64,000 bases of DNA from Asterochloris sp. CNOR1 (lineage: Eukaryota; Chlorophyta; Trebouxiophyceae; Trebouxiales; Trebouxiaceae): NCBI GenBank assembly GCA_963969365.1, contig OZ017758.1:2418001-2482000 (forward strand), in the 5' to 3' direction. The notes under the pieces are model-generated. The model worked only from the letters and a program-made list of their open reading frames with translations, had not been told where the DNA came from and did no database searches. The position numbers and the translations under genes were made by a program. Position 1 is the stretch's first letter, and every line of letters starts with the position of its first letter. This document shows, piece after piece, positions 3,976 to 61,477 of this stretch.

Positions 3976-6900
3976 ATGATGTTCAGCAGCAGGCTTGACC
4001 TTCAATGCCGACCCTCAATCAATTGCATATCGGAAACTGGCTATAGATCTCTGCTGTCTATTCAAAGGTACAGACTCAGATTGGCAGCCTCAGCTCAGCA
4101 GCTGGAGGTGCAGGAGGTTGTTGCCGCCCCAGTCACATCAGTTGATAGGGCAATTCTAGTGCAAGGCAGGGTGATGTGCACTGTCACTGCTGCTGCAAAG
4201 CTTGAAGGCTCAGTCAGTCCTGGTGAAGGACATCACATAGAGATCGCTGCCCCAAGACTGCGCTGCATGCCCCACTGCAGGCTTCAATTGGGAGAGCTGC
4301 AGGGATGGCGCATGGTATGAGACTGTAAGAAGCAAGATTGGGGAGCTGCAGCAGACCGGTGCGACACACATTTGGCTGCCGCCGCCCAGCCAGTCAGTCT
4401 CGGACCAGGTCAGCAAGTCTACCTCCAGCTGCACAGCTTGCTCAGCATGTGATGCGGTGCAGGTGCAACCAAACAACAGGCTGCTCCAGGGGCGAGGTGC
4501 TGCTAATGTCATGTTGCCCGCAACAGGGATGTGCCCAGAGACAGGGCAGTCTGCTCATTGAGAAAGGGAGGATGAAGCGGGGGCCAGCCAGTTCAGCTGT
4601 ACTGCAGATCTTAGCACAAATAAACTGTGCCTGTGTGCCCTGCGGGCCCTTGTTGCCACATGGCTTGAAGCCTGATCAGTGTCAATGTGTGCTGCAGGGC
4701 TACCTGCCATATGGCTCGCAGCACAATCGCTGCCAACATGCCTCAGCAGGACGACCTTTCACATGGCTTCAATCAGTGATTCTGCCCTAGTGTCTCCTGC
4801 AGGGCTACCTGCCACAGCAGCTGTACAACCTCACCAGCAAGTATGGCACCAAGGAGCAGCTGCAACACCTGACATGGGACCTCAACCATGCCGGCATCAA
4901 GCCGATAGCAGGCAGGTGCAGGGGCACACTTCCCCTGGGCATACTCCCATGATGCTGTTGCTCTCCTGTCTCAGCAGGGCCTGGCAGAAGGCTCCTGCAG
5001 CCCACTGTGTTGTGTCTGCAGGATGGGCTGCCCAAGTGGCCCTGGGTGACCCTGTTGCACACCTACTGGCACACTTTGCTGGCTGCCAGCCAGACTAGGC
5101 TGCGTCTCAGATGCCTGCCTTTGCTGCATGCAGACATCGTGATCAACCACCGCTGCGCTGATGCCCAGGACGAAAAGGGAATCTGGAATTGTTTCAAGTA
5201 AGGCAAGATGCAGCTGGACCTGGGCAGCCCTCAACCACTAAACCCTAGCAGCAGTCAAGCCCAGTTCGCAGTGCTCATGGCGGCATCGCTTTGCGTAGGC
5301 ACATGGCCTGGCAGACACGTTGGGCACCAGGACAAATGCCAGCACAGCAGAGTGTCTGCCAGGGGGGCACTGCATTACAGCTGTCGACATCTGCCCACGC
5401 CCTTGTATGTATGTGTTCAGGGATGAGACCGATCACCTTGGCAGGAAGCTGGATTGGGGCTCTTGGGCCATCTGCAGCGACGACTTTGCCTACCAAGGTG
5501 TGTATGAATCCTGGCAGGCAGCCTGCTGTGTTTTGGTCAGCTTGAGGCCAAAACAGCACATCCCCGCAAGCTTCAAGTGCAGCATGCTGACCGCAGCCCT
5601 CCTGTCCTGCTTAAAAGTTTGCTGATGCAATTGAGCGACTGTCAACTTTCATTTGAAATATCTGGATTGCTCAGCATTGCATGTCCTTTCAGGCAAACCT
5701 GCACACTGAAAGAGCTGGCAAAGTGCATCTGCAGCCTGGCGAGAGCTCTGGCTGTGCCCTGCTGCAGGCAAGGGTGGGAAAGACACAGGAGCAGCGTACG
5801 ATCCTGCTCCAGGTAAAAGCGGCTGCCTTTCCCTCATGACTGGAGATACAGGCCTCTGCACCCCAGCAAGCTCTCAGGAGTGCATGGCCTGCCCGCCTGT
5901 GTCTGCAGAGTGCTGTGGCAAAGCTTTCAAGTTTCTGAGCCTGCCCCTGTACCTGCAGACCTGGACCACAGCAATGAGGAGCTGCGTGCTGCGCTCAAGG
6001 AGTGGCTGTGGTGGCTGCGCGACAGCATTGGCTTTCAGGTGCACTGCCCTGCGTTGCTTTTCTGGAGCGCCGCTGAGGTGGTGTGCCTCAGTGCCTTCAG
6101 GGCGCGCAGGCTTTGACAAACGCTGTAAGAGCCTCTTTGATACCACCTGGTGCCTGCTAGACTGAAGGCGCAGTCTCCATCACCTGCAGGTTGCTGCTGT
6201 AGGGCTGGCGCTTTGACTTTGCCAAGGGCTTTGCGGGGCGCTTCTGTCAGGAGTATGCGGACTGTTGCCGCTTCCAGGAGGCTCTCCATGTGGCCGAGTT
6301 CTGGGTGGACATGCGCTGGGATGGAGCTAGCATGGCAGAGGACCAGAATGCCCCTCGGCAGGCAAGCCAGAGTGGTGCAGTGGTGTGTGGGCTGAAGACT
6401 GAGACAAGCTGTCAATTATCACCACAAGCCAAACCCAGGTTGAGCCCTGAGGTTGCCAAGAGGCGCATGGCTCACCCCAGTTCAGACATGGATAGAGCAA
6501 GGGCCCCACTCCGGGTCCCACCGTGCCTGATTTCCTCCAATGTCTGATAATGTGTGCCGTCCCTTCAGACATGCCCAAGGTAGTGCACAGCTGGCTGCTC
6601 GATGCCCACTCTGCCTAGCCTTGCGCATGATACAGGGCACAGCAGCTGCCAGCTTCAGTCGGTGTGCTCTGTGCCGACTGATAGGCTCTGGCAGCTGACT
6701 AGCTGGCTGCTCCCCCGTGCTCACTATGCCCTGCCTGGCTTTTGCTACAGGGCACAGAGGCAGCCAGCTTCAGTCTGCATGTGCTGTGCCCGCAGACAGG
6801 CCCCTGCAGCTGACTGCTGCCTGCCCCCGCTCACTATGCCCTGCCTGGCTCATGCTGCAGGGCACAGCAGTAGCCAGATCCAGTCCAATCTGCTCTGCAT

Positions 6901-8716
6901 GAGGCTGCAACCATGGAACAACAGCCAGGCAGGGCTGCCCTTCCCCAGACGCTGCCCCTGATAAGGGCAGTTCTGCTCCACCGCGACATGTCTGGTCGAT
7001 GCCTCGCTGTGTGCTGCTCCTGCAGGCGCTGTGTGACTGGATAAAGTCCGCCGGCGCCAAGGTGTGCGCCTTCGATTTCCCCACCAAAGGCATCCTGCAG
7101 GAGGCAGCCCGCAACACGCAGTACCACCGCCTCAGGGACCGGGAGGGGCGTCCTCCAGGGCTGCTGGGGTGGTGGCCGCGCAGGGCTGTCTCCTTTGTGG
7201 ACAACCATGATACAGGTGGAGCTGATGTGGTGGCCGTGCAGGCTTGCCTGTACCTTGCACAGCCACGGCACAGGTGGAGCTGGGGTGGTGGCTGCGCAGC
7301 GCTTTTCTCGCTGGACAACCATGACACACGGGGGCAAGGAGACTCTGGGTGGGGTGTGTCATGCGCAAAATATCTGGGGCCACGCCGGCCTGTTTGGGGG
7401 GTTTGGAGGGCCCTTTCAGGCTGCCGTGCTCTAGGACCTCAGCAGCACCAACCAGGGCCAGGGAGCTGCTTATCTGAGATCGCAGGTAAGCGTACGAGAT
7501 TGCAGGCTGCTGGGCAGGGACCTGTTCCCACACATTGACAGCCTCGGTCAACAGAATGTCTGAGTTGCTACAGCAGACATTGAAGCTGCTTCTGCCTTTG
7601 AACTGACCTTGTTTGTTGCCATACTTGAGATTGTGGTGTTATGCTGCTTGTGCCCGTGCCCTAGTGGGCACGCAGGTGTCTGCTCCTTCCAGCGCGCCCA
7701 CCATGCCCCAGACTTCTGCTTGCCTGTGAGCCCATCATACAGAAGGCCTCACAAAACAAGACACTCTACACCCAAGATCACAGTGGTGTGGCCCCTGCTT
7801 GCAGGCAGCACCCCCCGGCACTGGCCTTTCCCCCACAGCCACACAGGTAGGACCAAGACTTCTTAGGTTTTTGTTTTTCATAAAATCAATTTTTGTTGAC
7901 GTCCTTGCTCCACTCTTCATGACACACAGGGCTTGGATATGCATACATCCTGACGCATCCAGGTGAATTAGGGCTTGGCTATGCATCATCCTGACGCATC
8001 CAGTGAACCAGGCCTTGCTGCACTGCCAGCCACCGCATTGAGCTGGCAGCCTGGTGCATAAGCTGCCAGCCCCATGTGACTGGCTGCCCTGCAGGCATTC
8101 CCTGCTTGTTCTGGGACGACCTCTTCTCAGAGTGGCACCATGACACCATGTGAGCCTCCATTTGTGAATGCCTGCTGTCACACTTCACATGTGCTGGACG
8201 TGTTTCGTCAGATGCTATGGCTGCAGCAAGCATTGTAAATGCCAGAACATGACCATCCTCTGGCATACTTGGGCAACTGACTTCTGCAACCATGCCTGCA
8301 GCGTCTCTCTGGTAAAGCTGCGCCAGAAGCACCAGATACATGCTGGCAGCAAGCTTGAGATACTGCGGGCTGAGTGGGACCAGTATGTCAGCCGCACAGA
8401 TGACAGGTGAGGCTGTTTGCAGCTCTGCTTGCTCACCCCTGCATGTCATGATGCTGCAATACAGTCCAACTGACATGGCCCAGTCCCCTTCTGGCATCCC
8501 TTGCGCCACACCTATTGCTGCATGTGCTGAATACATCCCACATTGTGCTGCATGTGCCAACAGGGTTGCTAGTGGAGCATGTTCTACATTGCATGCAGGC
8601 TTGTGTTAAAGCTTGGGCCTCGCCGTGACATGGATTCCCTTCTGCCAGATAGCAGCCAAGGCTGGGTGATGGCAGCCAAAGGCCATGACTGGGCGCTGTG
8701 GGAGCGAGTGCTGTGA
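3976..8716 (+). CDS. AMY: Alpha-amylase (glycoside hydrolase family 13, plant type)
   Basis: Hydrolyses internal alpha-1,4 bonds in starch. Fourteen exons (3976-4165, 4281-4408, 4803-4911, 5134-5197, 5421-5497, 5768-5812, 5959-6038, 6203-6361, 7026-7215, 7805-7846, 7930-7962, 8095-8149, 8302-8406, 8599-8716) total 1,395 nt in one open frame, 464 residues. The start of the catalytic barrel is QGFNWES, then THIWLPPPSQS. All four GH13 signature regions are present: DIVINHRCAD, GWRFDFAKG (nucleophile Asp), HVAEFWVD (acid/base Glu) and SFVDNHDTG. Plant-type markers GLLGWWP, GYAYILTHPG and a short C-terminal beta domain follow. Roughly 60 residues precede the barrel. They are rich in Ser and Arg with hardly any acidic residues at first, suggesting a plastid transit peptide. 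Introns 1, 3 and 8 use GC donors (4166, 4912, 6362), which the frame requires. Several introns hold copies of their neighbouring exon edges. Confidence 0.95.
4691..4825 (+). repeat. Copy of amylase exon 3 acceptor edge
   Basis: CTGCAG followed by GGCTACCTGCCA occurs at 4692 and again at the true acceptor 4797-4814. It is a decayed duplicate of the first 12-15 bp of exon 3 plus its splice site, about 105 bp upstream inside intron 2. Confidence 0.75.
6605..6890 (+). repeat. Tandem repeat in amylase intron 8
   Basis: Three imperfect copies, about 115 bp each, of a unit containing CCTGCCTGGC, CAGGGCACAG and GCCAGCTTCAGTC start near 6605, 6720 and 6835. The array lies wholly inside the 664-bp intron 8 and does not contain recognisable exon sequence. 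Confidence 0.8.
7186..7340 (+). repeat. Copy of amylase exon 9 donor edge
   Basis: The end of exon 9, encoding the catalytic-region phrase DNHDTG and its donor (7192-7222), reappears at 7309-7339 as GGACAACCATGACACACGG. Internal pieces beginning AGGTGGAGCTG also recur (7214 and 7271), so the duplicated segments overlap. The second copy is intronic. Confidence 0.75.
7930..8001 (+). repeat. Tandem copy of whole amylase exon 11
   Basis: Exon 11 is only 33 bp (GLGYAYILTHP). It is followed after 8 bp by a near-identical copy at 7971-8001 that lacks two bases and has lost its GT donor. The copy is therefore a dead exon duplicate in intron 11. Confidence 0.85.
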
Positions 8717-10965: not shown

Positions 10966-13900
10966 ATGGCAGAGAGGTGGCTGCAGAGCCAGGCCAGCAG
11001 TCGCTATCCCCGCGCCAGTCATGAGAGCTACCACCTGGATGTGGACGAGAACCGGACGCCACCCTCTGGCAGGCGCACAGCAGCCAACAAGAGGCAGTCC
11101 ATGCCCACCATTGTGCACAGCGACACCTCTCCTGATAGGAGCACCACATTCAGGGGCGGCAATGAACGTCTGTATGAGGCCTATAATGACCTCCACTCCC
11201 TGGCCCAAGACTTTGAGAAGCCCTTTGATGCTCCCGCCATCTTGGTGGTGGGGCACCAGACTGACGGCAAGTCGGGTAAGGCTCAGCACGCCCAAGCAAT
11301 GCGGAAAGAGTAATGCAGCGCTGTGCACATGCGCTGCTGGGCTTTGCTCAATGTCGTGCTGCAACTCATTGACATGTGGTCCACCCATGCGTGTGGTAGT
11401 GAAAGGTATCAGCTCCTGCACTCTCGGCACGTGCAGGATGTTAGGTGTCCTTGCAGCCACTCCTGCTGCGTGTCGCCCTGAGGCATCCGCTGCTGACTCA
11501 CTAGCCCTGCAGGAGCGCTGCTACCAGGGTCTCAGTGGCTCAGGCTGTTCATGCTCTTGTGGTGACCCTCATGTCGGCAGTTGCAGCTGCACCTAAGCTG
11601 CCGCTGCCAGCCCCTGCAACCCTGGCACAACTGGTGTTGCTACTCCTGCTGAGGGTTTGATAGAGAGGCAGCCACCTGCAGGGGCAACAGAGCTGCAGGC
11701 ATCAGCAGCGTCTCATTGCTGCTGCTGTCCTGCCATACTGCTGTGAGGAACTGCTCAACTTGCTGTTCCTGGGATGGCTGACAGCACCGTCACACATCTC
11801 GTCACTGGCGCTGCCGGTGCCTGCAGCTCTGGTGAAGGAGCTGATGGGCTGCCAGTCAAATACAGATGCTGTCTGCAGCTCAGCAGCTTGACAGGACCAA
11901 ACAAGTCACCCTCATGGTCATCGACTGCAGCTCTTGTTGAGAGGTGCAGCCTGGCCTGCAGTTGCCGGGAATGTCACAACAGCAACTGCATCAGAGCAGC
12001 ACTGAGTCAATGCTGGTGCCTGCAGCCCTGGTGGAAGCGCTGATGGGCTCTGTGTGTCAAGGGTCAGCCACCACAGTGTTGCTGCAGCCCATGGAGCTCA
12101 TTGCTGACCTCATGCTGCCTACCCAGGGATGTGTTTCTGCAGGGGCAGCAGCAGAACCCCCCAAAGTTGCCTTAGATGCTGCCTGCAGCCTTGGCACAGC
12201 AGCACGAGAGATGCACACCAGAGTCCTCACCAGCAATATTGCCTGCAGCCCTGGTGGAGGCGCTGATGGGCTTCCAGTTCAACCACGTGGGCGGGGGCAC
12301 CAAGACACGGCGCCCCATCACGCTGCACATGAAGTACAACAGCGCCTGCGTGCAGCCCAACTGCTTCCTGGTCACCGAGGATTATGGAGAGCAGGAGCTC
12401 ACGCTGGAGGAGCTGCAGGCGGGTGCAGCTGACCACAGGCACCAAATGCCTACCGGCAGCACAGGGCATGCTGTGGTTCTCCTCGCGAGTGCAATCAATT
12501 GCAATGGTGCCATTCAAGGGTGCCGGTGCAGTGGTTCCAGTCTTCTCTTCAGCCCGCAGATATGAAGCGGCGAATGACCTGTGAGCTGGACCAGGATGCA
12601 GAGGCAGAGCAGGAGCACAGTAAGCAGTGCATGTGGGCCTGCTGCAGGAGCATATTGAGAGTGAGAATGCGCGGCTGGAACGGGAGCAGCAATTTTGGGC
12701 CAAGGAAATTGTGGTCAAGATTGAGTACAAGTACTGCCCCAACTTGACCATCATTGACACTCCAGGTGGGCTGCTAGCGGTCTGTAAGTGGCATTGAGGC
12801 AAATCACCACTGCTACCAGAACGTGCTGCGAAATGAATTTAGCCAGCTGTTGTGCAGCACTGCGCACAATCTGGTGGCAGCAGATTGCAGGCAGCAGAGC
12901 CGCTTGGCTGCAAACTCTTTACCCATGTGCGCTGGGTCATGAGCTGCTGCTTGGAGACGGGTGGCAGTGCGCCGGGCATGGCAAACATGAGGTTTGCAGC
13001 TTGCTGCTCAGATACTAAGACAAAGCCCTATGTGTGATGGTGCAGGCCTGATCTCTGCTGCTCCTGGGCGGCGTAACAGCATGATGCAGAACAGCGCCAA
13101 GCAGGTGGAGGGGATGGTGCGCCAGAAGATGGAGCAGAAGGAGTACATCCTGCTGTGCTTGGAGGACACCAATGACTGGAGCAATGCCACCACGCGGCGT
13201 CTGGTCATGCAGGTGTGTAGACTCACTCAATGGTTCAGGGATTCGTGGACATGGAGGTGCAGTGTACCATGCGGTGCCTGGTTGTGCAGGTGCACCTTAC
13301 CATGCTGCTTTAGGCAATGACAAGGGATTGCACCTGTGAAGGTCTGGCTGACTTGTGAGCAGATTGTCCTGAAGCTTGGGGCTGGTGGCAGGGCTACTGC
13401 TGCAATGTGACCAATGGGCATAGGACTCTTTGTGGCAGGGTGACGCTGACCTGTAGCAATCTACCTGATGAGTTCTGGGGCTCAGCACCAAGCCACTGAG
13501 TGCTGCACAGCATGCGGATGTCAGGCTGCCGTAGCTTCCAGCAGCACCTGTACACTGCTGTTTGACTAATGCCTACTGTTTCTGTGCACCAGGTGACTGG
13601 CAGCTATGTGGTCTGCAGATGTATGCTTTAGTAACAGAGGTCAAGGTCGGTTCGTGCCGCCTGATGCAAGCATGACGGAGCCAGGCTACCAGCACCCATG
13701 TTGCCTGCAGATTGACCCCCATCTGTCCCGTTCAGTGGTGGTGTCCACCAAGCTGGACACGAGGCTGCCCCAATTTGCGCGGGGCTCGGATGTTGAGATG
13801 TTCCTGCGGCCGCCGGGGCGCTTGCTGGAGCCTGGAATGCTGGGGGGGTGCCCTTTCTTCACGTAAGCCGCAGGCTGAAGGGCCATTGCTGCTCACAAAA

Positions 13901-16900
13901 GTCACTCTGAGCCTGATGGGGCGAGGAGGCGTTTCTGACTCCTGCCTGATGGAGATTGTGGCTGCATTTGACATCCTGAGCCAAGGTCGCTGTGCCAATG
14001 TGGGCTGTCTCTTGTCACATGAGCCAAGCCTGGATGCTGCTGGAAACGAATGAGGAGATGCTCCTGATGGTTGTGGGCCTGTCTGCGAAACTGGAGATGT
14101 TCTTGTTACAGCCCCTGGGATGCTGGGGGCTGCTCTGTCGTGCAGAAGCAACGCAGGCAGGCAGCATAGCACAGATGTCAGCTGCTTCCCACATAGACAA
14201 CAGCGCGGTCTTGCAGAAATTGAAAGCTGACAATATTTGTTAATCTGCTTGCCTCATCTGGGCTGGTCCGTCTGAGCCGGTGCATGTGGCAAAGTTGGCT
14301 GCTGTGCGGCCTGCCAGGCGGCAGTAAAACACCACTATAGCAGCACAGCGCCCGGCACACTTCATCACTGCCAAGGTGGCCACCAGGACTCTGCTCCTGC
14401 CTTGCATCACCAAAGGAGGGATGCACTGTAACCTGCCAGGTGAATGCTCACCTGAGAGGCTGGCAGTTTGCAGCAAGACAAGCTACGCTGCCCAGTGCAG
14501 CTGAACCTCCTGAGCTACAGATCAGCACACAGGATGTTGTCTCACACAGGGTGCACCACCTCACGCCTGCCCCTCCCATGTGCAGGTCAGTCCCTTCAGG
14601 GCGTGTGGGCAATGCAAAGGACGCCATCTTCCGCAGCAACGAGCACTTCCGCCAGGCTGTCGGCGAGAGGGAGGACTGTGATGTGGGGGAGCTGGAGCAC
14701 AGGCTGGACAGAAAGCTGGAGAAGGCGGAGCGGGCCAGGATTGGGGTTGGGCAGCTGCGGAGATTCCTGGAGCAGCTGCTGCAGCGCAGGTGAGACAAGG
14801 AGGCAGTCTGAGCGCTTCAGGCTGGGAGGCCGAGGAGCTGGAATGTCTGCAATATGTCGCTGAAGCTGTGCTGTACACAGCAGCTAGAGCACAGATCTGA
14901 CACTTCGTGGAAGGAGGCCGAGAGGCATGGATTGGTGGGGTGCACCCGTGCCGCTTCCTGGCAGCCGCTGCTGCGGGGCAGGCTGGCAAACACAGGGAAT
15001 TTTGGATAAGGAGCATGCATTGCACAGGGCACAGCAGCATGTGCTTGCTGGATGCATTGTCACAGCCTGATTCCATCTCCAGGACAGGGAGCGGCAGAAT
15101 GCTGAGCGGGCTGGAGCTGGGCTCAGCAGCTGTCTAGGGTTCTGCAGCAGCTGAAGCACTGCAAGTGGAGCCAGGGATGCAGCATGTCTGGGGCGTGGTT
15201 GGTCAAGATACACTGTGCCGGGACAGGGCTGCACCGCTGCAAAAGCAGCTGCAAAGGATTCTGCAGCAGCTCTCACAGTGCAAGTAGGGTCTGGGGGCTC
15301 CCTGCATAGAGGCCAGACTGATGCGGCACAGGCTGCACTGCAGTGGTGGGCTGTGGCTTGCAAGGTGCAAACCATGCCTGCATTTGGATCGTGGATGCTG
15401 CAGCAAATGAGAGAGCAGCTATAGGGCAGACTGAGCCACTGCGTCTAAATCTGCAGCAGGGAGCTTGTCTCCAGTCCCATGATCTGCAGGCACTTCCTGA
15501 TGTGGGCACGCATCTGGTAACCTGAGCCTGAGGTTGGCTCAGCAAGTCCAACCTGCAAGTCACAGGCTGGGAAGGCTGCCTTCGCTTGTGCTCTCCATCG
15601 TGCCCCTACTGGACACAGCACTTGATAGCAAACAGCAACGGCTGGTAACACTGACGCAGCTGCATGCAGGCACATGGAGAACAGTTCATCCAGCCGGCCC
15701 CTGCTGGACATAGCACTTGATAGCAAACAGCAATGACCAGTGACACTGACGCAGCTGCATGCAGACACCTGGAGAACACTTCATCCATCAGGCCCCTGCT
15801 GGACACAGCACTTGATAGCAAACAGCAATGGCTGGCAACCTTGATGCGACTTGCATGCAGGTACCTGGAGAATGTCCCATCCATTGTGCCCCTGCTGGAG
15901 AAGGAGTACCGCCACGCAGCTGCTCGTCTGGAGTCCACTCAGGAGGAGCTCAACGACCTGCACCCTGACAAGTGAGAGGCGCAGACTAGAGACAGACTAG
16001 CCAGTGCTGCAGTGGGAGTTGCATGTGCGGCCCACGGGGAAGCTCAGCAACCTGTCAGGGATGGTGCATGGGAGGAGCTCAATGATAACCTGCACCTTGA
16101 CAAGTGAGAAAAGCAGACTGCAGAGTCAGGTCAGCCTATGCTGGACAGGGAGGTGCATGTGGCGCTCACAGGAGGAGCTCAGCAACCTGTCAGGGATGCT
16201 GCCTGTCACATTGTCCTCTCCATGCCCCATGGGCGCAGTCTCCAGTTGCACAGGGCATGCCAGCTGGCATCTGCTCCAACACCTGGCGCCGTGAAAAGTT
16301 AGTGCAGGTGGAGGGAGCAGAACTTGCTTGTCTTGTCTGAACAAGGCGTCCAGCTTCTTGAGCAAGCTGTTGGCAGGCCTGCACCAACCAGTCAGTCTTG
16401 CAAGCAGCTGACTGGCCGTCCACATCTGCGCACACAGGCGGAGGCTGGTAGGTCTCAAGAACGTGCCACATGACATCCTCCACCGACCTCTGCCTAGGCT
16501 GAGGGGCAGGGAGCATCTCCCAGCTACTGTTCTCCACTGATCAACCCATTAAAGTGGTGTGTTCGCCTGCCTGCAGGCTCAAGGAGAAGGGGCGCATCTT
16601 TCGGGAGTCATTCCTGGCCAAGCTAGCGCTATTGCTGCGAGGGACAGTGGCAGCACCCCCTGAGCGGTATGGGGAGACGCTTGCTGACGAGCACATCCGC
16701 GGGGGTGAGACTGATGTGCAGTGACCAACAGCAGTAGCATTGCAACAGTTGCTCTGAGGGGCGCACGATCTTGTAGGCGCTGCAGTGGACGGACGTGCGG
16801 CGGTGGCTTGCTGCAAGCCCAGAGATTTCCTGCATGGGAGCAGGGGATGGGTGGACCACATGGCGTATTGGCAGCGCGCAGCTCCTGTTGGATGGGAACA

Positions 16901-29697: not shown

Positions 29698-42957
<13,260 letters not shown>

Positions 42958-44969: not shown

Positions 44970-47900
44970 ATGTGGGTGGAATCGCAGGTGAGCCCTGCCG
45001 TGGACACTCATACCGTGTTGCTGGCCCCCGCATGCCGTTTCTGGCAACTCAGGTCTCAAAGGTCACATCCCGCTTACCTGCTCCATGCTGCCTGCAGAAG
45101 AATGGAGGTGTTGGGTTCATGGTGGCAGCCCTGCTGCTGCTGGGTGAGTCAACCGTGCCATGATGGCTTGAAGGCTGCAGTGCAGCACTGATGGCTTGTG
45201 CTGCTCCTCCTTGGCCAGCACTGGTCATGCTGGTCGCTGTATCATCACCATGTACTGCTGCTTGTAGGCACCTGGCCAGCATTGCTGAATCTGTGCGAGC
45301 GCAAGGGCCGCCACCCGGCCCACACCTTTCTGGACGTGAGTCGCTCGTCTGCTTACTTGACAATCAGCTGTAAGGGTTGCCAAACGGCCCGCAACCTCTT
45401 TGGGACGTGAGTTGCTGCTGTTCTGCTTGATATTTATTCAGCTCCAGCCACACATCTCTGATGGGGGTATTGCTCTTCTGCTGAGTTCCAGAGTTCTTTC
45501 ATGCAGCCAGCTGGTGGAATGTTGCGTGCTGCACAAGACCTGTTCTCTCTGTTGAGTCAGCCATATGTTGCTTCACCCAGCTTAAGCACACCTCAACAAC
45601 CCCTGGCGGCTGACCACTTTGGCTGATGCTGCTGCTGCCGAGCGGGCTGCACTCCCTGTGCTGCGCAAGCATCCCAGTGCTCATGTACTGCAGGATTCAC
45701 TGGTTGCTGCTCCTTCCAAGAAGGCTTGCTCTCTGCTGCCCTTGCTTCCCAAGCATGCCTGTGTCTTCTCCTGTGCTGCAGTACAGCTTCACGAACTACC
45801 TGATAGCCATCATTGTGGCCCTGACGCTGGGCCAGATAGGCAGCTCTACCCCAGAGACCCCCAACTTCACCACCCAAGTCCACCAGGTGAGGGAAGATGA
45901 GGGGTTTGTGCTGCTTGCTGATGAGTAAATGCTTGCCTGGAGTCTTGGGCATACTGTTTGCTGGCAAAGCCGTTCTCCTCAGACCGACAGGAGTGCCGTA
46001 TGCATCCCCACTGCAGCCACAATCCAAGGGCTTGCCAGGGTTCAGCAAGTCATGTGACTTTGATACAATTATATGTGCTGGGCAGCCTGCTAGGTCTCAG
46101 GTCCACCATCTCCCTGTCAGAACTGCCCTCAAGTCAGGCTTGTGATCAAAAAGATGCAAGTTCAAGTCTCGCCCCGCCTCTTCTTGGGAGACTCCAGGGG
46201 CTCTTTCGAATGTCATTGACAGGAGGGCTGTCATGCAAAATGCACACCCTCTGCAGCAATGTGAAAGTACTTGCCAGGGTTCCAAACGTCATGCTGGGCT
46301 GCCCACCTGACTACAAGCTGCGCATCTGCTGTGTCAGTGCTGGCCCACCAGGTCTGCAGCAATGTTATCAGCATGCCCCTCACAGCCACACACAGCGTCC
46401 TGTTCCAACATGCTGCCAGACCATGCAGCTTTGGGCACCTGGCATCTGCTGAAACAGACAATCCAAGTTCAGCGGCCAGCAGCACTGGTTCCATGCTTTT
46501 TGGCTTTGCACCATACTCTGCGCTGCAGACACTTGGGCATGCTGTGGGCTTTGCCAACAGAGGAGGCGTCCTGGCAGCTGCTTTGACTCCGTGCATCTCA
46601 CTTGTACCTTATGTGGCGTTGCAGAACAATGGGCCCTCTGTGGGGTTTGCAATTGGAGGAGGCATCCTGCTGATGGCAGGCAACCTGTCGGTGCAGTATG
46701 CCCTTGCCTTTGTGGGTCTGGCGGTGGCTGAAACAACCACATCATCAATGACCGTGGTTGGCGGGTGAGCAGTTGCGCATCTGAGGGCAGCTGCCAGGGC
46801 ATCAGCCTGGCAACCAGAATCACCAACGATACTTCCTTGTTGCAGGACGACCATCAACTGGTTTCTGGATGGTCGCATCAACAATCCTGCAATTCTTTTC
46901 CCAGGTAAAGGTGTCTGGTGGCAGTGAGCATGCTGTCGTCAAAATTCATTGCGTTTTCACCCGGTCAACATCAGAGGACTGCAATGCCTGCTGGTGGCAA
47001 GTGTACCCGCTCCCCTGTGATGCCCTCACCTCAACTCATGCTGCACACAGGTGTGGGCTGCTTTCTTTTGGCAGTCTTCCTGGGGGCTGGCCTCCACATC
47101 AGCAATACGAGGGACAATGAGAGAAAGCTGGGCCTGGCTCGCACCAGCAACCCCATTGGAGAGTGAGTGTTGTTCGCTGACTAAGTTGCAAGGGTTCTGC
47201 ATTCAGTGCTGCTGCACGAGCTGCCAAGGTTGCCACGCCTCCGCTCTGTGCAATGAAGCAGCAAACACGAAATGAATGTATTGGGTGTGTAGTAGGGTTC
47301 GTCCTGGCTTTAAGCGCTGCCCGTGATCATGTCTGCATCCTTCACACATACGGCAGTTGCCATCGCTGCCTGCTTTGATGTGTCTGTCACTGCAGCCAAA
47401 AGGTATGCCTCTCCTGCTGCAGCTCTATCAGGCACCGCCAGGAGACTGGAGCCACGCTGACACCTCCTATGGGCTTTGAGTTGCCCGCCAAACCAGGTGA
47501 GGGGGTAGGATATTCCGTTGCGCAGACAGCTTATCAGTAATGCTGTTCCACAGTCAGGCTGTGCCCTGCCTCTGCTTCTTCATCTCTGCGTACGCCAGAA
47601 GGCTGGAGGCACGCTGACACCCCCTGTCGGCTTTGAGCTGCCTGCCAAACCAGGTGGGCGGGCCAAATCTGCATATTCTGTGTGCAGCAGCACAAGGGGC
47701 AAAACTGTCATATCCTGACGACAGAGGCCTGTCCTGGAACTGATGCTCAAAACTGCTTCAAGCGCAGTATGAGAAGGTGTTGTGGGATTCAGAGAGGCAG
47801 CAGGGACTGCTGTGCTTGTTGCCTGCTCAGAGTGAGCACATCTGATGTTTGTCTGACACCTTTCACCTTGGCAGTCAAGCTGTCAACATTCCTGAAATCG

Positions 47901-50900
47901 GGTTGCCAAAACCCATATTTCATCTTTGCCAGGCTGCTGTGCTGTGCAGGCCATCATGACTCGGCATCGTGCAAGCCAGCCTATCACTGGGTGCTCTGCC
48001 CACCAAGGCGGCACTGCCCTTGTCAAGCACTGCCATGTTCTGTGCAGGTGTGCCCAACCCTGAGGTCAAGCACTGCCATGCTTTGTGCAGGTGTGCCCAA
48101 CCCTGAGGACTCAGCCCACAAGGGACACATCGTGGACAAGGACTATGACCCAGCGCTGGATGTCAAGCCCTCAGCGCCCAAGCCTGCCAAGAGCAGGTCG
48201 GCCGTGGGCAGCGCAGCGCATGCAGCAGAGGTTGAGGACAAGAGGGCCATCAAGGTGCGCTGCCGCCTCTTCCTGAATCTCTGCTCACCAAACATGCCTG
48301 CATGAGGGCACAGGCTGTGAACCTGAGGTTCACCGAGGTGCAGTAGAAAGGGACTTACAGGCTTTGCGCATTGGCACTTTGCTGGTGTTACATTTTGGTG
48401 GCTGCTGGTGCTAGATTCCCCTGCTGCCAGTAGGAGCCAAGTAACAGGGTCGGCCTGTCTGAAGGCTGGAGGGTGAGCAGACGTCAGGCCCACTCTGGTG
48501 TACAGTTGGCTGCTGCTGGGCTTTCTGTGGCCAGTCGCATGTCGTCCTAGCTGTGTTGGTCAGCCCCCATGCCCCGCCTCAGTGAGCACCCCATGCTGCA
48601 GGTCTGCGGCATGTGTGGATGCAAATGGTTGCTTTAGATCTCTGAAGTTGGTCCTTTTGTGAATCTGGCGGCTTTGACGGTGTTGGTCGGGGTCTCTGCT
48701 AATTTTCTCTGCGCTGCACATCCTCAAATTCTTGGCAACACTGTGGTTATGGGTCTCACCATGTGCTGCATCTCTGCAGGTCTCACCATGTCTCTGCAGG
48801 TCTCAGCATGTGCTGCATCTCTGCACATCCCACCTCGTGCTGCGCTTCTGCAGGTCCCATGGTGTGCTGCGCAGGGCTCTGCAAAGAGCATGTCTGAGTG
48901 CCGGATCTTTTCGCTGCATCTCTGCAGATCTCTGGCAGGGGCGTGATGGTGGGTCTGGCTCTGTGTTGCATCTCTGGCACCTCCTACATTCTCTTCTCTC
49001 CGGCAGTCAACCTCGCCACCAATGACCAGTGGCACAAGCTGGCAGACGGAGTGCCCCACCTTGTCGTCTACACAGGTCAGTCGTCATTCCCCGAATCCTA
49101 CATTGCTCCTGTCTGGACGCAGCTCGTCACATGTGAGCAGGGAGGTGTGCCATGGGGTTGGGGCGTCAGACTGGTTGCCTGGCCTGCGCTGAAGCATGCC
49201 AGACGGTTGCCAGTTTGCGCAGACCATCCCCTTTCTGGACCCCAGTCACCTGGCTGCTGAATATTGTCCTGCATCACTTTGCATCTCTCCCATGTCAGTG
49301 CCTGCTTGCTGGGCCTCTGCAGTTCCGCTGCCTGACCTGACCACAACTTTAGCTGCCGCCTCTGTACATACCCCTTGAAGCGAAATACTTCATACCACTC
49401 TGTCTTCTTTGCCTGCAGCCTTCTTCTACTTCAGCACAGCATTCTTTGGCGCAAGCGTGATCCTCAATGTTATTTTTCTGTACCGGCCAGTCCTGGGTTT
49501 GCCAAAGAGGTGAGGTCACAGATGGCGCTTCCGACATGCCTTTTCTCCCTGCCATGTGATGTGGGGCTACATGCATGGCCCTTGCTGGCGGCATGACCAA
49601 ACAGGTGACTGGCATTGTCTGCATCCTTGTGGAGTCCTGTAACATGGGTTGCATGCACTGTATTCCTGCGGATCCAAAATTAAGAGAGCGCTAGGGTATG
49701 CCTGACATATCCATGGCTTTTGCTTTGTTGTGGGCCTGTTTTGTGGTCTCAGTCCTCGAGTCTGCTTCCTGGTGTGGTACTCTGCTCTGTTGGCTGTCTG
49801 GCTTCCTCACCTTCCTCAAAACTCTCCACCAGCAAGCCATGAATCCCACACACTGCAATGCTGCCCTGCAGCGTCCACCACATACCTGGTTTCAGATGTC
49901 CAAGCCCTGCTTATATAATGAGAGCTGCCCTGCAGCTCTGTCAGACCTGACTGGCAGAGGTCCAAGACAGCTCATGCAAAGTTCCCTGGCTTGCAACTCC
50001 CTCAGAGGCGGCCTCCAGATTGTGCACGACCAGCTCACACATCTTTCCTGCCTTGCAGCTGCCTTGGTGCCTACATGACGGACCATGCAATGCCACCACT
50101 GGGCCCTGCTGGCTGACACACAATCTTGATCCTTGCAGCTCCCTTGGCGCCTATGTGAAGGACATGCACTGCCGCCACTGGGCTCTGCTGGCCGGCGGTC
50201 TCTGCGGCTTGGGAAACACCTTCCAGTTCATGTGAGTTGAAGCACAGCTGGCAGGGAGTGCCATATACAGTTTGTCTGCTTTGCACGGATAGGCAAGGAT
50301 GCAATGCTTGGCAAAACTATTTGTTTTGTAAATGTCGCCTGCCTCGCCTATCCTGGTAGATCATCCTTGCTCTGCATACCTTTCACTTCGTGAGGCCCGA
50401 AGGATTTGGGCTGCCTTTGCGCGGCAGTGCAGCTTCCATAGACACAGCTTCCATAGGCTGGCTGCAGCTGATGGTACTGGACACTGTGTGCAGCGTGACA
50501 GCCTTGCGCAAACCTCAAACCCAAATTTTGAACCCGATCTTGAATTGCCTAGGCCCTCTGCCGCCTCTGTGTGACGACATGGCCTGTGTGTGCTCTGATG
50601 TCCTGTTTCCTGCTTGCAGGGGTGGCCAGGCTGCTGGCTATGCCGCTGCTGACTCTGTCCAGGTGAGAAGCTGCATCAAAGCCTTCAGCTCTGCACCAGC
50701 TCGTCACACACCCCCTTGTGTCACACACCCCCTCCACCACCCCTCGGGCAAGTTTTGCCAGTCTCTTGTTCTGGGGCATACTCCGTGACGGCCTGTCTGC
50801 CTCTTAGGCCCTAATGTGCCTGATGCTTTATGCTTACTTAAAGTTTATCTACCCAGGTTACTTTGATAGTTGTGATGTTTGCAGGCGCTGCCCCTGGTGA

Positions 50901-51884: not shown

Positions 51885-54800
51885 ATGCAGGTGGCCCTGC
51901 ATGCAGCGCTCCTGGCTGCAGCCTCAGCTCAGCGCCTGTGCCCAGGCCTCCTGGGCAGCTACTGGTATCGCACCACATTCCCCCAGACTGGCCCTGATGC
52001 AACCCTCAGCCTGCCACCGCTCAGCTACACACAGCTGGTGCCGCCTGTGCTGGCACGCAATGAGACTGTGCTTTCCATTGGCAGCTTCGAGGATGCGGTC
52101 CCTTTTCCTGAAGGGTGAGCTACCACCTCTCAATACCGCGGTGCACATTTGCTGCCAGCATTTCCCTGCTGGCAAGCCCTGTGTGCAACGCGCCGTCTCT
52201 GCCAATGGGGCTGTGCTACTGTCAGACTTGACCCAGATCTGGTCGCCCCTGGGTAAGCACAGCCTTGACTGAGACACTCCTCATGCTCTCCTCTGCCTGC
52301 ACAGGTCTCTCGGCTAATGGCTTTCCCTGTGTCCCTTTCACTGTAACACTTTGCAATGTTGCCTTGCCTACAGGATCAAGACTCAACACAAGAATCAGCT
52401 GTCTCCCTGCAGGTTCAGCATCATCTATACTCTCACACTTTGTGTTGTCCTGCCTGCATGAGCAGCACCCACTCAAGGCTCAGCTCTGCTGCCTCACTGC
52501 AGTCTCAACAGATGGGACACTTTGCATTACTGCCCTGCCTCCAGCACTCAAGACTCAACACCAGAATCAGCATACCCTGTCTCCCTGCAGGTTCAACATA
52601 ACCGCTACTCTAAAACTTTGCAATGTTGCCCTGCTTGTAAGACCAGCACTCACCTCAAGCTTGAGTTCCCATTGCAGCCCTGCAGTTCAAAGATCCCGTT
52701 TACAGTGCAGATTTGCCGTGCCTTCAGCACTCAGCGCTCAACACAGGCATCAGCTTCCCCTGCTTGCCCTGAAGGGTTCGCACCACCTCTACTGCAACAC
52801 CTGCAGCATTGCCCTGCCTGCAGCACTTAGCGCTCTCAACTCAGCTTCAGTGCCCACCGCCACCCTGCAGATCCAACGAGACATTTGCTGTACAGTCATG
52901 CAGTGATACCCTGCCTGCAAAGCACACCATAACCTCCAGCCTCCCTGCCTGCCCTGCAGATTCAACACGACGTCCATCGTGACAACCTTCCAGGGCTACC
53001 TGCAGCTCCCCTCGCCAGCCACGCTGACGCTGTTCCTGCAGTCCAGCGACGGGTCGGAGATGTACCTGGACTGGAGAAACACCTGTGAGCCACTCAAGTG
53101 CCAGCCTGGGTCTGAGGTCCCCAAGGGGGGTCTGTGACGCACAAACCGTGTGGCCACAGCCCTGTCACCGGACCCTGCTGGCTGCATGCGACGCTGCATT
53201 CCTCAGCCTGCAGCAGGGCGCACCTTTGCGCTGCACGCTCCCCCAAAATGGCATGCAGGTGGCTTGTCACGATCTTGCCTGACAGGCCACCTGGGAGCAT
53301 GTGACCTGGAGTGCCCTTGATTCAGTCAGACCTTCAAGCTACCCGTGTCAGAGCCCTGTTGTCTGACTGCTGCAGCGGATCTGACGAGCAGCCGCGTAGT
53401 GACGTACCAGCTCACAGGGGACACCACATTCGATGAAGGTGAGCCATTCAGCCAATCCAATCCACAACATGGTGCTGCTGCTCACAGGAAACATCACTTT
53501 CAATGAAGGTGAGGACTGCCAAAGTGTACAGGAAATGGTGCTGCTGCCCACATGCCTCTGGCACCAGGCCGCTGCCCTATCTGTAGTGCAGGATCCCATA
53601 TTTTGCCAGCCCTGCATGTGCACCATGTACTGTGCTTGTCTGGGGTCAGCCTGCAGGCCAAGCGGCATGTTGCGTGCTGCAGCCAGCCAGCTACAGCCTC
53701 GTCCTGCTTGCGGAAAGCTGTGGCAGCATCTCAATAAACCCAGCTGGCATTTGCAGCCATGCATTGCACTGCATTCATAACATCACAGCAAAAGTCATGT
53801 GCAAGACCAGTGTGGTGTGCACTGCCAGGACAGCCAGAGGCCAGCACCCTACTTTGCAGACGTTGACCATCATGCCGGCTGATTGACAGCAATTGCTCAC
53901 GTGCAAGATCAGTGTGTTGCAATCTGTCAGCACTGCCAGATGGCCAACACCCTACTTGTCAGGGGCTGGCCAGTGTGCTGGCTGGCGGCAGCATGCCTCC
54001 CCTCATTCTTCTTTGCAGAGGCTGACCACCATGCAGGCCACAGCTGTGGCATGCCTCACCCTGCACCATGGAGGCCTGCAGCACGCAGGCCACCCTGCCG
54101 GCCCAGTCCTCACAACGGCCCCCTGTCACCGTGACATCAGCTTCCCCCCAAACCCTAAACCCTGTAAACCTTGCCCGAATGGTGTGTACATCCAGGGTAC
54201 AGGACTGAGGTGCCTCCGGCACAGCCTGGGACGTATCCTATCCAGTCGTCAGTCCAGCGCCGTGCATGGTCAGGTGGTGCGTCAGCTGAGCGTCATTGGC
54301 TGGCACATCATGCTGAACCCTCGTTGCAGGCTACGGCAGCGTCACAGTCAACATCTCCGCTGCGGGGCCCTACCAGTTCCTTGTGCGCCACCAGAAGTCT
54401 TCCAGTGTGGCCGACTGGGGCCCCCCTGGTGTGCTGCTGGGGTGGGCTGTTGAGGGCAGCGCAGGGTTTGACACCCCGCGCACGGTGAGCCACTGGGTTG
54501 TGAAGGTCATGCGGCTGCCACCCGGCCTGCAGCTGCAGAGCCATTCTGGGTAGCGCAGGCATTGACACCCTAAGCACGGTGAGCTGCTGAGTCGCGAAGG
54601 CTGTGTCGGACAACCAACCCAGGATGCGAGCAGCGCAGGCAGTCGCACCTCTGGCGTGGTGAGCTGCTGGCGAGCTCCTGGATTGCAATGCGAATGTGAA
54701 ACTGCCATGCAGCTGGCAGCTGCAGAGGCCATTCAGGGCAGCGCAGGGTTCGACACCTCTTGCACAGTGAGCCGCAGAGTTGTGAAGGTTACGTGCGGCT

Positions 54801-57813: not shown

Positions 57814-60800
57814 TCAAATGCTTGGATACTCTTCAGCATCTACTTCGTCAGGATCCAGCTCCCGCTTGGCCACCGCGACCATGACGTCTCTTAGCTTCCC
57901 ACGTGCAGCTGCTGCGGACAACGGTGTCTCCCCTTCCTTGTCCTCAGCCTGCACCAAGTCAGCAGACTGCACTGAGCTTCAACAGGCCATCTGTCGTCAC
58001 TGCGTGAAGGGTCGCACCTTGCATTTGCCAACAAAGCAGGTGCAATGCAGGGCCACAGCTCCACTGCTGGGGACACTGTGTGCTGCTAAAGTTACTTACC
58101 CCCCCAACTGACTGCATGATGCATGTGTGGCTCAGTCAGCTCCGTTGCCTATGTTCATTACTCTGGTTTGTTCTTCCCACCGACCCCAGGCTGTGTGGCG
58201 TAAGCGCAAGCGTTGGCCGCAAAGTCTGGACTGCTGTGCTGTGCTACTGGTCCCAGCTAGCTTGGGCTGATTAGACATACAAGGCAAAGAGAGACTGCCG
58301 ACCTCAGGGTGGGCCCCACAGTTGACCAGGAGGGAGAGGTGCTGCAGTGAGACAGCTTGGGCTGCTCAGACAGATGAGGCAGGAAGACGCTGCCCACCTC
58401 AGGGTCAGCTCCACACTTGGCCAGGAGGAAAAGGGCGACGGGCTGGTGGCCACTGGCCGCAGCCACGAACAGCGGCGTCTGGCCCAGCCCATCCTGCAGG
58501 TGCAGGGGACTTGCTTGGCATTGCTGTGCATGATGACCCTGACAGATCCTGGGGTTGAGGGAGCCAGCGAGGGGCAGCTCCCACCAGGTGTCTTTTGGCT
58601 CAGCTGCTGGCCACACAAACAGCATGCACCACAGGCCTGCATCCAGGCCCTAAACCCTAAACCCTGAGGGCTCATGTCTGGGCTCCTTTGTGCAGGCAGA
58701 TGCCCTGAAGCCTCTGCCTGGCCCACCCCCAGTTCTACCACAAGAAGTTGCCCAGGCATGTTTGCAGCTCTGCTGCTGCCTGGGGCACATGGGCTGCTGC
58801 CCTCCAGCATCCATGCACCGTGGGCGGCGCAAAACCGCTTCAGCAGCAATTAGCTGCAGCAACAGCAGAGGCAGAGAGCAACACACCACAGCATGAGCAG
58901 CACAGTGCCGATTGGAGCAGCAAAGAGCCACAAATCTGCTCTGTTGTGGCACCACAATACTGACTATGCCAGCAGAGCTTTGTCTGTGGCAGTGCTGTGG
59001 CATGGCCCTGGCAGCACTGAGGCAGAGCGACTGCACACAGAAGCAACAGCTGCCGAGCTGTTGCTTGGCTCTGCCAACGCTGCAGTGTGACTCAGGGAAA
59101 TGCTGGTGAACATATGGTATCACCTTGATATTCACTTTTGCCTTCCCATCCTGCACCAGCATCTTTGCAGCAGCTATTTGCCCGGTGCTGCAGGCCCTGC
59201 AGTGGCACAGCAGCATCTGTCAGTCGCGTGCCAGCTACCATCAGTGCGCAGGATCTCAGTAAGGTACGACATGACTCATGCCATAGTCGATCTGGCTCAG
59301 CAGAGGTCTGCTGCAGCAGGGCACCGGCAAAGCATGCCAGAAGCGCTGCAGCGCCCCGATGCGTCTGATGCAACACAATGGCAGCATCAGACATCCCATC
59401 ACTGCAGCATGTGCCCGACTTGCAGGGTGGGCATGCTGGGAGGCAGCAACTCCCCAAAGCCCCTCACCTGTGCAGGGGAGTGGAGCCTGTGCTGTCCTGC
59501 GCGTTCACCTTGGCTCCTGCTTTCAGCAGAAGGGAAATGATGGCAACCCGCCCCTTGGAGGCCTGCAGGCAAACAAGCACAGCATCTTGTCACTTGTACT
59601 TTGTTGCGTCAGAACATGAGACTGGCCATCCACATCCGTAAATACTCATTATTGCGCTGAGGCCAAGCGCAGCCAGGGACTCCAGTTGGTAGGCACTCTG
59701 CTGAGCTCCACTTGCAGACTCCTGAGCTCCGCTGCGGGATGTGTATGATACTTGCAGCGCCTGAGCTGTCAGGCAGCATGCCAGCATCTTCAACACCTTG
59801 ACTATAAATGAAATGTTCTGATGGGTTTGCTGGGCATGCCGGCAGCAGTCCCGCAGCGCAGTGCACTGACTCTTAGCCAGTCTTGCATGCCAAACAAGCA
59901 TCAAGCGATGTGTGGACATGAAATTCTGGGGTCGCTCTTCCTGCTGCAAGCATCTGTCAGGCAGCACCTCTGCAGCACCTGTGCAGAACATCGTGTAATG
60001 GTACATCATGCAGCAAGGCCATGCCAGTGTGTGGGGTGGCAGGTGGGCCCAGCAGCAGCAATCCCACCGCATGATGTGGCGCAGTGCGCCTCATCGATTG
60101 GAGTGGCCCTCATGTAAACATTTCCTTCTTGATGAAAGCAACCCCCATGCAAGGCCATTGCAGGCCACATGCAGTCGGCAGCAGTGCATGCCACTGTGTG
60201 GTGCACTGCCATGCGCATCCCCAGGCTGTACTGGAGTCAGAGTTCTGTCTGGTGCGCCTCTTGGTGGCAGGGCACATGCAACTGGCAGGAAGACCTGCAA
60301 TGCACTGTCACGCACTGTGTAGTGCAGCGCTGTCCGGCCACCCGAGTTGGCTGCGTTGGGGTCTGCGTGCAGCTCCAGCAGGCGCTGTGCCACCTGATCA
60401 TGCCCCGCGCTGACAGCAGACTGCAGCGGCGTCCATCCCTGCACTGCAGACATGCAGCAGGTGGCCCCTGGAACTGCGCGACAGACACTTATTCAATTTT
60501 GCCTTGCAAAGCAGGCCCCAATTTGGCCTGCATCATGTCAGAACAGGGGAGCACTGTGCCTGAGCAGCATTGCAGCGGCGGTCATTCGTGCACTGCAGAC
60601 ATGCAGCAGGTGGCCCCGAACAGTGTGCGACAGACACCGTTTCGTTTTTGCCTAGCACCGCAGGCCCCATTCCAGCCTGCCGTCTGTCAGCACAGGGGAG
60701 CGCTGTGTCTGAGCAGCACTGCAGCAGCGTACAGCCCTGCACTGCAGGTGGACAAGCCAAAAGCTGGTCAGGTGGACTGCAGTAAGGTTTTGCTCTGTAA

Positions 60801-61477
60801 CGCGGGCCTAGCCCCAGGCTGCAGTCTGCAAGCAGCAGCAAGCGCTGTGCCTGAGCAGCACTGCAGCGCAGTGCAGCCCTGCACTGTAGGGACACAGCAT
60901 TGACTCGAGCAACCGCACTTCTGGCAGGCTACAGCATTTGTGAGCCTGCAGACTGTCATCAGCAGGGAGCAGTGCAGCAGTGCACTACCCAGCCCTGCAG
61001 GCACGCTGCAATGGCTTTATGAGCAGTCTGTGACTGCACTCACGGCAAACAGTGGTGGCTCCGGTCTGTCAGCAGCACTCTGTTGCCCAGCCTGGTTCAC
61101 CTGTCAGCACAACCACTGCTGCAGCACGACTGCCAGACGCCTGCACCTGTGCTCTTCCTGCCTTGTTGCCAGTCACGGCCGGCACCCTGTGATCAAAGCT
61201 GTGCTTGCAGGCAATGTAGCGCTGCAGCAGCAGAGAGTGCTCTACCTGCTTCATGCTGGCTGCTTACCTCATCATCAGCAGTGTTCACGCTCTGTCCTGC
61301 GCCCTTTTGCACCAGAAAGTCAAGCAATTGTAGGTTGCCACTGGAAACTGCTGAATGGAGGAGGGTTCGCCCGTCTTCGTCTGTGCTTGAGATCAGGCTC
61401 TGCAGATTGCCCTGTTGATCCAAGGATTTGATGGCTTCAAGATCGCCCTTCCTGCACGCCTCTGCCACACTCTGCAT
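57814..61477 (-). CDS. Ankyrin-repeat protein resembling proteasome p28/gankyrin (PSMD10)
   Basis: Minus-strand exons 61477-61268, 60438-60316, 59562-59468, 59196-59124, 58493-58398 and 57948-57814 give 732 nt, 243 residues. Five to six ankyrin repeats fill almost the whole protein: RTLLHSAVSSGNLQLLDFLV, WTPLQSAVSAGHDQVAQRLL, ASKGRVAIISLLLKAGAKVN, STGQIAAAKMLVQDGKAKVN, QTPLFVAAASGHQPVALFLL and TPLSAAAARGKLRDVMVAVA. Size, repeat number, the short N-terminal helix (VAEACRKGDLEAIKSL) and the order DxxGxTPLH suggest the PSMD10/gankyrin type, a chaperone that binds the Rpt3 ATPase during 19S proteasome assembly. The acidic tail ends DEVDAEEYPSI. Generic ankyrin proteins look alike, so the specific assignment is tentative. 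It is convergent with the PA14 gene (231 bp apart) and divergent from the hydrolase. Confidence 0.85.
58265..58412 (-). repeat. Copy of ankyrin-gene exon 5 donor edge
   Basis: On the minus strand exon 5 ends CTCCTGGCCAAGTGTGGAGC TGACCCTGAG with GTGGGCAGC. A copy about 117 bp downstream reads CTCCTGGTCAACTGTGGGGC CCACCCTGAG with GTCGGCAGT. It is intronic and still has a GT. Confidence 0.9.
58650..58668 (+). repeat. Interstitial telomere-type motif
   Basis: CCCTAAACCCTAAACCCTG, two and a half CCCTAAA units, lies in the 58494-59123 intron of the ankyrin gene. It matches the motif in PA14 intron 3. Confidence 0.7.
60418..60900 (-). repeat. 147-bp array across ankyrin-gene exon 2 acceptor
   Basis: On the plus strand, CTGCAGCGGCGTCCATCCCT GCACTGCAG (exon 2 start and its acceptor in reverse) recurs in diverged form at about 60569, 60718 and 60861. 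The shared text includes CATGCAGCAGGTGGCCCC, CAGCACAGGGGAGC and GCTGTGCCTGAGCAGCA. The period is 143-149 bp. Only the 60438 junction is in frame. Confidence 0.88.

Follow-up and report, generated by a model that had tools for sequence, protein, structure and literature searches.

Genes and gene models at the locus

The window, a stretch of 64,000 nucleotides from the green alga Asterochloris sp. CNOR1 (bases 2,418,001-2,482,000 of contig 13; the genome comprises 56.4 Mb in 21 contigs), carries genes whose introns retain decayed copies of the exon edges that adjoin them. It was analysed together with 192,741 further bases of the same contig, for a total of 256,741 bp, and the results refer to this one contig of one strain. 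Genes were predicted with a two-strand hidden Markov gene finder that was self-trained on the 256,741 bases without cDNA, and all gene models are predictions. Before counting, 52 small, frame-neutral, uncertain exons and 18 predicted genes with fewer than 240 coding bases were left out. The final set has 54 genes and 416 introns (median length 306 bp), and the trained splice consensus is CAG/GTGAG at donors and TGCAG/G at acceptors (the slash marks the splice site).

Pfam matches were obtained for seven of the eight predicted proteins submitted: amylase (fused with a FAM221 gene), dynamin GTPase, SNase, HSP90, ureide permease, ankyrin, and alpha/beta hydrolase. Among these eight proteins, no Pfam match was obtained for the downstream part of the dynamin region, and the Pfam result for the model that combines the permease with the neighbouring "PA14" gene contained no PA14 domain; the latter name is that of a preliminary description of the window. 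The HSP90 model was hand-edited by joining two predicted genes and removing five false small exons. Started at the conserved first residues, it aligns with HSP90-alpha of 8ffv from residue 3 to the end (706), and the amylase model similarly follows alpha-amylase 1ht6 across a junction that has a copy. Since both protein alignments run through the working splice sites, the spare copies lie outside the protein in these two genes.

Exon edges are duplicated in adjacent introns

Nearby repeats in this DNA are predominantly direct. At offsets below 1.5 kb, the 256,741 bp contain 187 direct and 37 inverted pairs, while a single order-3 Markov control sequence of equal length gave 2 direct and 14 inverted pairs; in the window alone, 49 direct pairs and no inverted pairs lie within 3 kb. 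Exon edges were then compared with their own introns, using 50-mers of exon letters only, searching the adjacent intron, scoring z>4 as positive, and skipping exons shorter than 50 bp and introns shorter than 120 bp. An intronic copy was found for 72 of 626 edges (32/316 acceptors and 40/310 donors), as compared with 4/399 exon pieces taken 60-110 bp inward (2/206 and 2/193), 18/311 mid-intron pieces, and 2/626 reverse complements (0/316 acceptors and 2/310 donors). Within the window, 15 of 134 edges were positive (8/69 acceptors and 7/65 donors). By blastn, 29 acceptor and 29 donor junctions among 832 have an intronic copy. Roughly a ninth of the intron edges tested thus retain a decayed copy of the exon edge next to them.

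Relative to the junction that they duplicate, most copies lie towards the intron (upstream in 30 of 35 acceptor rows and downstream in 33 of 39 donor rows), and their identity is mostly 70-90%. The smallest offset per cluster has a median of 118 bp (80 clusters with an offset of up to 400 bp). No offset below 55 bp was returned by blastn, and shorter units were seen only with Tandem Repeats Finder (TRF) and the local-alignment test; a lower offset limit near 80 bp was considered and dropped, given this blastn floor and the periods of 15-43 bp that TRF shows. As direct, nearby duplicates of segments that contain a splice junction, the copies probably belong to the boundary-crossing tandem (internal) gene duplications. 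Individual cases in the window, together with two wholly intronic repeat regions, are as follows:

4686..4814, plus strand: acceptor of amylase exon 3, with its junction at 4802/4803; copy 4686-4709 of 4791-4814 at offset 105, 92% over 24 bp, z 3.5 (the weakest confirmed case), protein aligned through the junction to 1ht6
7163..7328, plus strand: amylase exon 9 donor, junction 7215; intronic copies at offsets 58 and 116, 75% and 81%, z 14.1
11812..12278, plus strand: DRP5B exon 2 acceptor, junction 12248; copies 11812-11856 (90%) and 12011-12049 (97%), z 12.8
14706..15182, plus strand: DRP5B donor 14789; copy 15082-15182 at offset 376, 71%, z 5.0 (outside the preliminary description)
15594..15899, plus strand: DRP5B exon 7 acceptor 15860; array of a 95-bp unit, TRF 90% matches, blastn 82% over 210 bp, z 6.3
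15942..16205, plus strand: DRP5B exon 7 donor 15971; contiguous tandem copy with a unit of 129 bp, 79% over 129 bp, z 12.1, found with exons masked too
32511..33306, plus strand: surroundings of HSP90 exon 5; pairs 32511-32553/32632-32674 and 33157-33195/33268-33306, wholly intronic, nearest junctions z -0.1 to 0.9
38919..40599, plus strand: array in the 2.1-kb HSP90 intron (38628-40737); old, wholly intronic, unit about 208 bp, 14 pairs at 67-90% identity
42685..42860, plus strand: HSP90 last-exon acceptor 42833; copy 42685-42717 of 42828-42860, 88%, z 8.0, protein aligned through the junction to 8ffv
46520..46669, plus strand: ureide permease acceptor 46624; copy 46520-46573 at offset 96, 74%, z 7.2
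48022..48108, plus strand: ureide permease acceptor 48090; two copies of a 43-bp unit with TGCAG and the exon start, TRF 95% matches, z 9.1
50051..50192, plus strand: ureide permease acceptor 50138; copy 50051-50113 of 50131-50192 at offset 80, 86% over 63 bp, z 14.7
53410..53552, plus strand: donor 53438 of the "PA14" gene; copy at offset 70, 73%, z 10.3
58259..58434, minus strand: ankyrin donor, junction 58397/58398; copy 58259-58339 at offset 95, 78% over 81 bp, z 12.3

The preliminary description had named 18 junctions with such copies. It gave no coordinates for individual cases, and their matching to exons is our own. On the basis of edge z-scores and alignments, eleven were recovered: the amylase exon 3 acceptor and exon 9 donor, the DRP5B exon 2 acceptor and exon 7 acceptor and donor, the HSP90 last-exon acceptor, permease acceptors 46624, 48090 and 50138, donor 53438 of the "PA14" gene, and ankyrin donor 58397. 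The SNase exon 3 donor is suggestive (z 3.9). Six found no confirmation: the acceptor and the donor of HSP90 exon 5 (z -0.1 and -0.9, or, with a numbering that begins at the next exon, 0.9 and 0.3), where the nearby repeats are wholly intronic; the HSP90 exon 12 donor (z -1.1 or 1.0); the ankyrin exon 2 acceptor (z -0.8); and, in the "PA14" gene, the acceptor of exon 2 and a second donor, where several edges fell under the length limits of the edge test. Additional positive junctions lie beyond those named, at donors 13862 (z 5.2) and 14789 (5.0), acceptors 20027 (4.3) and 48927 (6.3), a donor in the weak gene model 55762-55910 (z 7.8), and, as a borderline case, donor 12418 (z 4.0).

A different kind of duplication is seen in the permease exons at 47423-47653, where a 15-residue peptide, TLTPP[M/V]GFELPAKPG, is repeated by duplication of an exon tail and both copies are predicted to be coding.

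Anatomy and decay of the copies

Matches reach further into the exon (median 37 bp for acceptors and 33 bp for donors) than into the intron (14 and 19 bp), as would be expected if the intron parts decay in both copies and the exon part of one copy does not. Simulated contiguous tandem duplications, made with simple rates and searched with the same blastn procedure, closely resemble the real pairs at k 0.20-0.35: simulated and real values are 15 and 14 bp for the intron side, 41 and 37 bp for the exon side, 62 and 61 for length, and 78 and 79% for identity. The share of pairs with an intron side of 12 bp or less is likewise 0.46 in both. Past the end of the match, the intron flanks have residual similarity with a mean z of 0.94 (n=41), as compared with 0.36-0.40 for simulated tandem and 0.00-0.11 for simulated spaced duplicates. 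Gap-to-mismatch ratios (0.071 for junction pairs and 0.132 for intronic pairs) lie around 0.09, the value obtained with the lower of the simulated indel rates, and not around the 0.19-0.21 of the higher one. Arrays such as 15594-15899 and 15942-16205 clearly hold contiguous duplicates. Short spaced copying was considered as a source and rejected: its simulation lacks the residual flank similarity, and uniform sources would place deep-exon pieces in introns, yet only 4/399 such pieces were positive.

These features suggest a course of events. In these intron-rich genes, short tandem duplications, typically of about 100-150 bp, would arise at more or less random positions. Selection would purge those wholly within a coding exon, and one that crosses a single splice junction would be tolerated if the outer splice site remains in use. 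The spare exon edge and its splice site would then turn into intron, and the intron would gain one unit; each such event may be neutral, with only one site spliced. Later, an intronic pair would decay on both sides and a junction pair mainly on its spare side. The preliminary description had likewise proposed that a junction is duplicated in tandem and that only one of the sites is then used. That part agrees with the direct orientation, the closeness and the mostly intron-side position of the copies, and with protein that reads through in HSP90 and amylase; from this protein continuity we infer which site is in use. That spare exon pieces would turn into intron follows from the anatomy.

Junction excess and its probable preservation component

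Repeats were grouped into 84 clusters with one representative each. Most common were junction-to-intron clusters (39), followed by intron-intron (17) and exon-to-intron (13) clusters; the others were 5 junction-junction, 4 intergenic, 3 exon-exon, 2 exon-junction, and 1 junction-intergenic. The 5/84 that touch intergenic sequence were excluded from the genic comparison. When the 79 genic clusters were slid over genes, 15.2 junction-to-intron, 29.3 intron-intron and 13.2 exon-to-intron clusters were expected, and the naive excess of junction-to-intron clusters is thus 2.6-fold (39 versus 15.2). Taken alone, this sliding null was rejected as proof of a junction bias, since simulated unequal decay yields such an excess. 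With uniform placement and an exon rate of 0.2, young duplications are detected equally well in simulation (1.00 at junctions and 0.98 within introns), but at 0.2-0.3 substitutions per site the detected fractions are 0.66 and 0.21, respectively. Junction pairs would thus stay recognisable longer and seem over-represented, because one of their copies is coding.

The search was therefore repeated with exons and splice motifs hidden, so that both classes are found via unconstrained intron sequence only (offsets above 450 bp were dropped). Of 34 masked clusters, 7 continue into the exon (21%), 26 are intronic, and 1 touches the boundary without continuing. Two masked simulations of random tandem duplication gave 106/364/71 of 541 and 71/298/65 of 434 (junction/intronic/boundary-touching), that is, junction shares of 20% and 16%. 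Boundary-touching cases make up 13-15% of the simulated clusters and 1/34 of the real ones. Age and bias were additionally fitted jointly to the unmasked scores. Here, as in the comparison with simulated tandem and spaced copies, the exon-part analysis and the second observed row of the junction-share comparison, offsets above 300 bp were dropped. The best bias factors were 0.73, 1.39 and 1.26 in three settings, none of which improves on an unbiased fit (a factor of 1) by more than 0.4 log units. Fixing the factor at 2 worsens the fit by 2.7, 0.6 and 0.7 log units, and fixing it at 4 by 7.8, 4.5 and 4.3. Similarly, with positives defined by a score of at least 26, exon edges and mid-intron pieces differ by a ratio of 1.9 (71/626 versus 19/311), between the ratios of 1.5 and 4.7 in unbiased simulations.

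Wholly non-coding clusters number 17 in 146 kb of intron and 4 in 47 kb of intergenic sequence. This intron-like density between genes means that nothing peculiar to introns is required.

Overall, a strong junction bias is unlikely, and a weak bias of up to about two-fold is possible. The junction-biased process raised in the preliminary description finds no support in a strong form: the raw excess exists, but the exon-masked share is about that of simulated random placement. Preservation through one coding copy probably accounts for most of the junction excess. Random placement and decay can suffice for most of the counts, and random short tandem duplication combined with longer legibility at junctions is, in our judgement, likely to be the best explanation. 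The preliminary observation is accordingly real but over-read.

Observations that weigh against random placement

Several results fit poorly with random tandem duplication followed by decay. The first group concerns the extent of the exon part. Only 3/50 junction pairs reach 60 exon bases, whereas simulations on the observed offsets give 24-45% (an earlier set, simulated with fewer indels, gave 48-52%). The correlation between offset and exon length is r -0.31 in the real pairs and +0.13 to +0.39 in the simulated ones. Among exons of at least 140 bp (n=296), positives number 51, 23, 3 and 1 at 0-50, 30-80, 60-110 and 90-140 bp from the edge. This relative gradient of 1, 0.45, 0.06 and 0.02 is steeper than those of all ten simulated settings, the closest of which give 1, 0.47-0.51, 0.22-0.25 and 0.08-0.14. 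Additionally, the pairs at 12248, 42833, 50138, 126388 and 133672 have 80-92% identity in the first 25 exon bases and little or none on the intron side (z -0.9 to 1.4).

The second group concerns age. Uniform-age simulations give a junction share of 44-52%, whereas 75% (52/69) was observed, and the model therefore needs mostly old events; the youngest age bin holds only 1-2% of events in the fits. However, the simulated masked junction share falls with age, from 86/340 and 63/315 at k <0.1 to 20/175 and 8/118 at k 0.1-0.2, and old events simulate to a masked share of only 7-11%, as compared with the real 7/34. By score, the real masked share is 6/21 at 45 bits, 5/14 at 60, 3/9 at 80 and 2/7 at 100, where simulations give 17-20% at 45 bits, 18-19% at 60 and 15-20% across these thresholds, and unmasked pairs above 100 bits comprise 6 junction and 4 intronic cases, where young simulated events are 33-44% junction. 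These score- and age-split samples are too small to decide on bias.

The scarcity of young events may stem from recombination that removes identical tandem copies, from a burst in the past, or from collapse in the assembly. General assembly collapse is disfavoured because a 4.8-kb tandem duplication at 99.98% identity was kept in the assembly. This duplication (4,832 bp; 59956-64787 and 64675-69506), whose second copy extends beyond the window end, has an alpha/beta hydrolase gene inside and is either very recent or an assembly duplicate.

Alternative explanations

Selection on splicing might decide which duplications survive, either by requiring that enough of the junction's own intron flank be kept or by tolerating only spare exon pieces too short for recognition. 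This is compatible with random placement and is a possibility that we hold tentatively. It fits the limit of the exon part near 60 bp, and the offset minus the exon part is at least 45 bp in 68/74 rows; the exceptions include 7215 (offset 58) and 48090 (unit 43). When a minimum flank of 45-75 bp was simulated, however, the gradient was only lessened, to 0.22-0.28 at 60-110 bp as compared with the real 0.06, and a minimum-flank rule was therefore rejected as the sole cause of the exon gradient. Another possible source of the 60-bp limit is a true unit near 100 bp combined with a need to keep some 45 bp of the junction's own intron flank; the larger offsets would then represent skipped copies.

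A junction-focused process would instead favour breakpoints near exon edges, and the pieces of exon edge copied into the intron would measure up to about 60 bp whatever the size of the unit. Candidate causes are, for example, nucleosome placement on exons, co-transcriptional breaks, or the shared CAG/G motif. The naive cluster excess, the steep exon gradient, an exon part that is limited independently of offset, and the 5/14 junction cases among masked matches at 60 bits all speak for such a process. On the other hand, the overall masked share equals that of random placement, the fitted bias is near 1, boundary-touching clusters are fewer than simulated (1/34 versus 13-15%), and the exon limit could also come from the roughly 100-bp unit with its retained flank. 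We therefore consider a junction-focused process unlikely. Breakpoints tied to exon edges could likewise be the source of the exon limit. In their specific form, the outermost 20-60 exon bases and the splice site would be copied into the neighbouring intron at any unit length, which we regard as rather improbable. If this were true, introns would grow preferentially from their ends, and the process would be recognisable by the limited exon part, by exon lengths that do not scale with offset, and by the steep gradient.

An artefact of assembly or gene prediction is very unlikely. The models are self-trained without RNA, and small false exons did arise and were removed (the 52 uncertain ones), but the copies are diverged, unlike assembly errors, the HSP90 and amylase junctions are backed by protein alignment, and the edge, deep-exon and reverse-complement tests share the same models yet differ sharply.

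Creation of these introns from duplicated exon pieces by AGGT tandem duplication of the Rogers type is the least credible of these alternatives, for although both splice consensus sequences share the required motif, in-register donor-acceptor similarity (at least 14 of 22) occurs at 0/358 introns upstream and 1/358 downstream, with null expectations of 0.08 and 0.16, a signal that old AGGT events would have lost.

As a check for introner-like elements, one 601-bp piece was searched genome-wide and gave one further match, of 72 bp at 83%; self-comparison of the window gave 1 far pair. The matching 72 bp lie at 20390-20461 and have their counterpart on contig 2; nothing else in the genome matched the test piece.

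Relation to known duplications

Duplications inside genes are reportedly common in eukaryotes, some of them making exon sequence intron (Gao and Lynch, 2009). In contrast to those, the duplications described here lengthen an existing intron, and the in-register test detected no new one. The preliminary description knew of no name for a process biased to junctions. Duplication across an exon-intron boundary is, however, already published, as tandem genomic duplication or internal gene duplication: a 2012 review lists tandem genomic duplication as an intron-gain mechanism with 188 identified events (PMC3443670), and the potato RdRp gene acquired an intron through tandem duplication of a segment spanning an intron-exon boundary (Ma, Lan and Niu 2016, PMC4974935). 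The potato unit, like those seen here, consists of an intron 3' end and the start of the next exon, and the duplicate carries most of the splicing signals. There, however, a new second intron arose via a cryptic donor in the duplicated region, whereas here the spare copy lies within the old intron.

The Rogers 1989 AGGT model, as summarised in three papers (PMC3443670, PMC4974935, PMC2891723), similarly has a tandem duplication neutralised by splicing out one copy, but needs a donor and an acceptor in register at one unit length, and this was not found here. In Drosophila, duplicated exon sequence was converted to intron (Lehmann 2010, PMC2891723). In that account one copy of a regional tandem duplication becomes intron, as proposed here, but the subject is new intron positions by sliding or tandem duplication rather than intron growth or decayed copies. 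Among titles and abstract starts in one open library, we recognised neither a count of junction-spanning duplications that lengthen existing introns nor an account of the preservation effect at junctions, which cannot show that none exists.

At a larger scale, contig 13 ends in TTTAGGG repeats about 93 kb to the right of the window. TTTAGGG is the plant-type telomere repeat, which, like the DRP5B-type dynamin and the ureide permease, fits a green alga.

Implications

To our knowledge, intron lengthening without transposons is poorly quantified. Two leads that can be tested are the limit of the exon part and the scarcity of young events. Counts of junction-associated duplications need a correction for preservation, and counting with exons masked is a simple way to obtain it. 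Splice junctions thus act as fossil recorders in these genes: because one copy is coding, old duplications are legible there after intronic ones of equal age have vanished.

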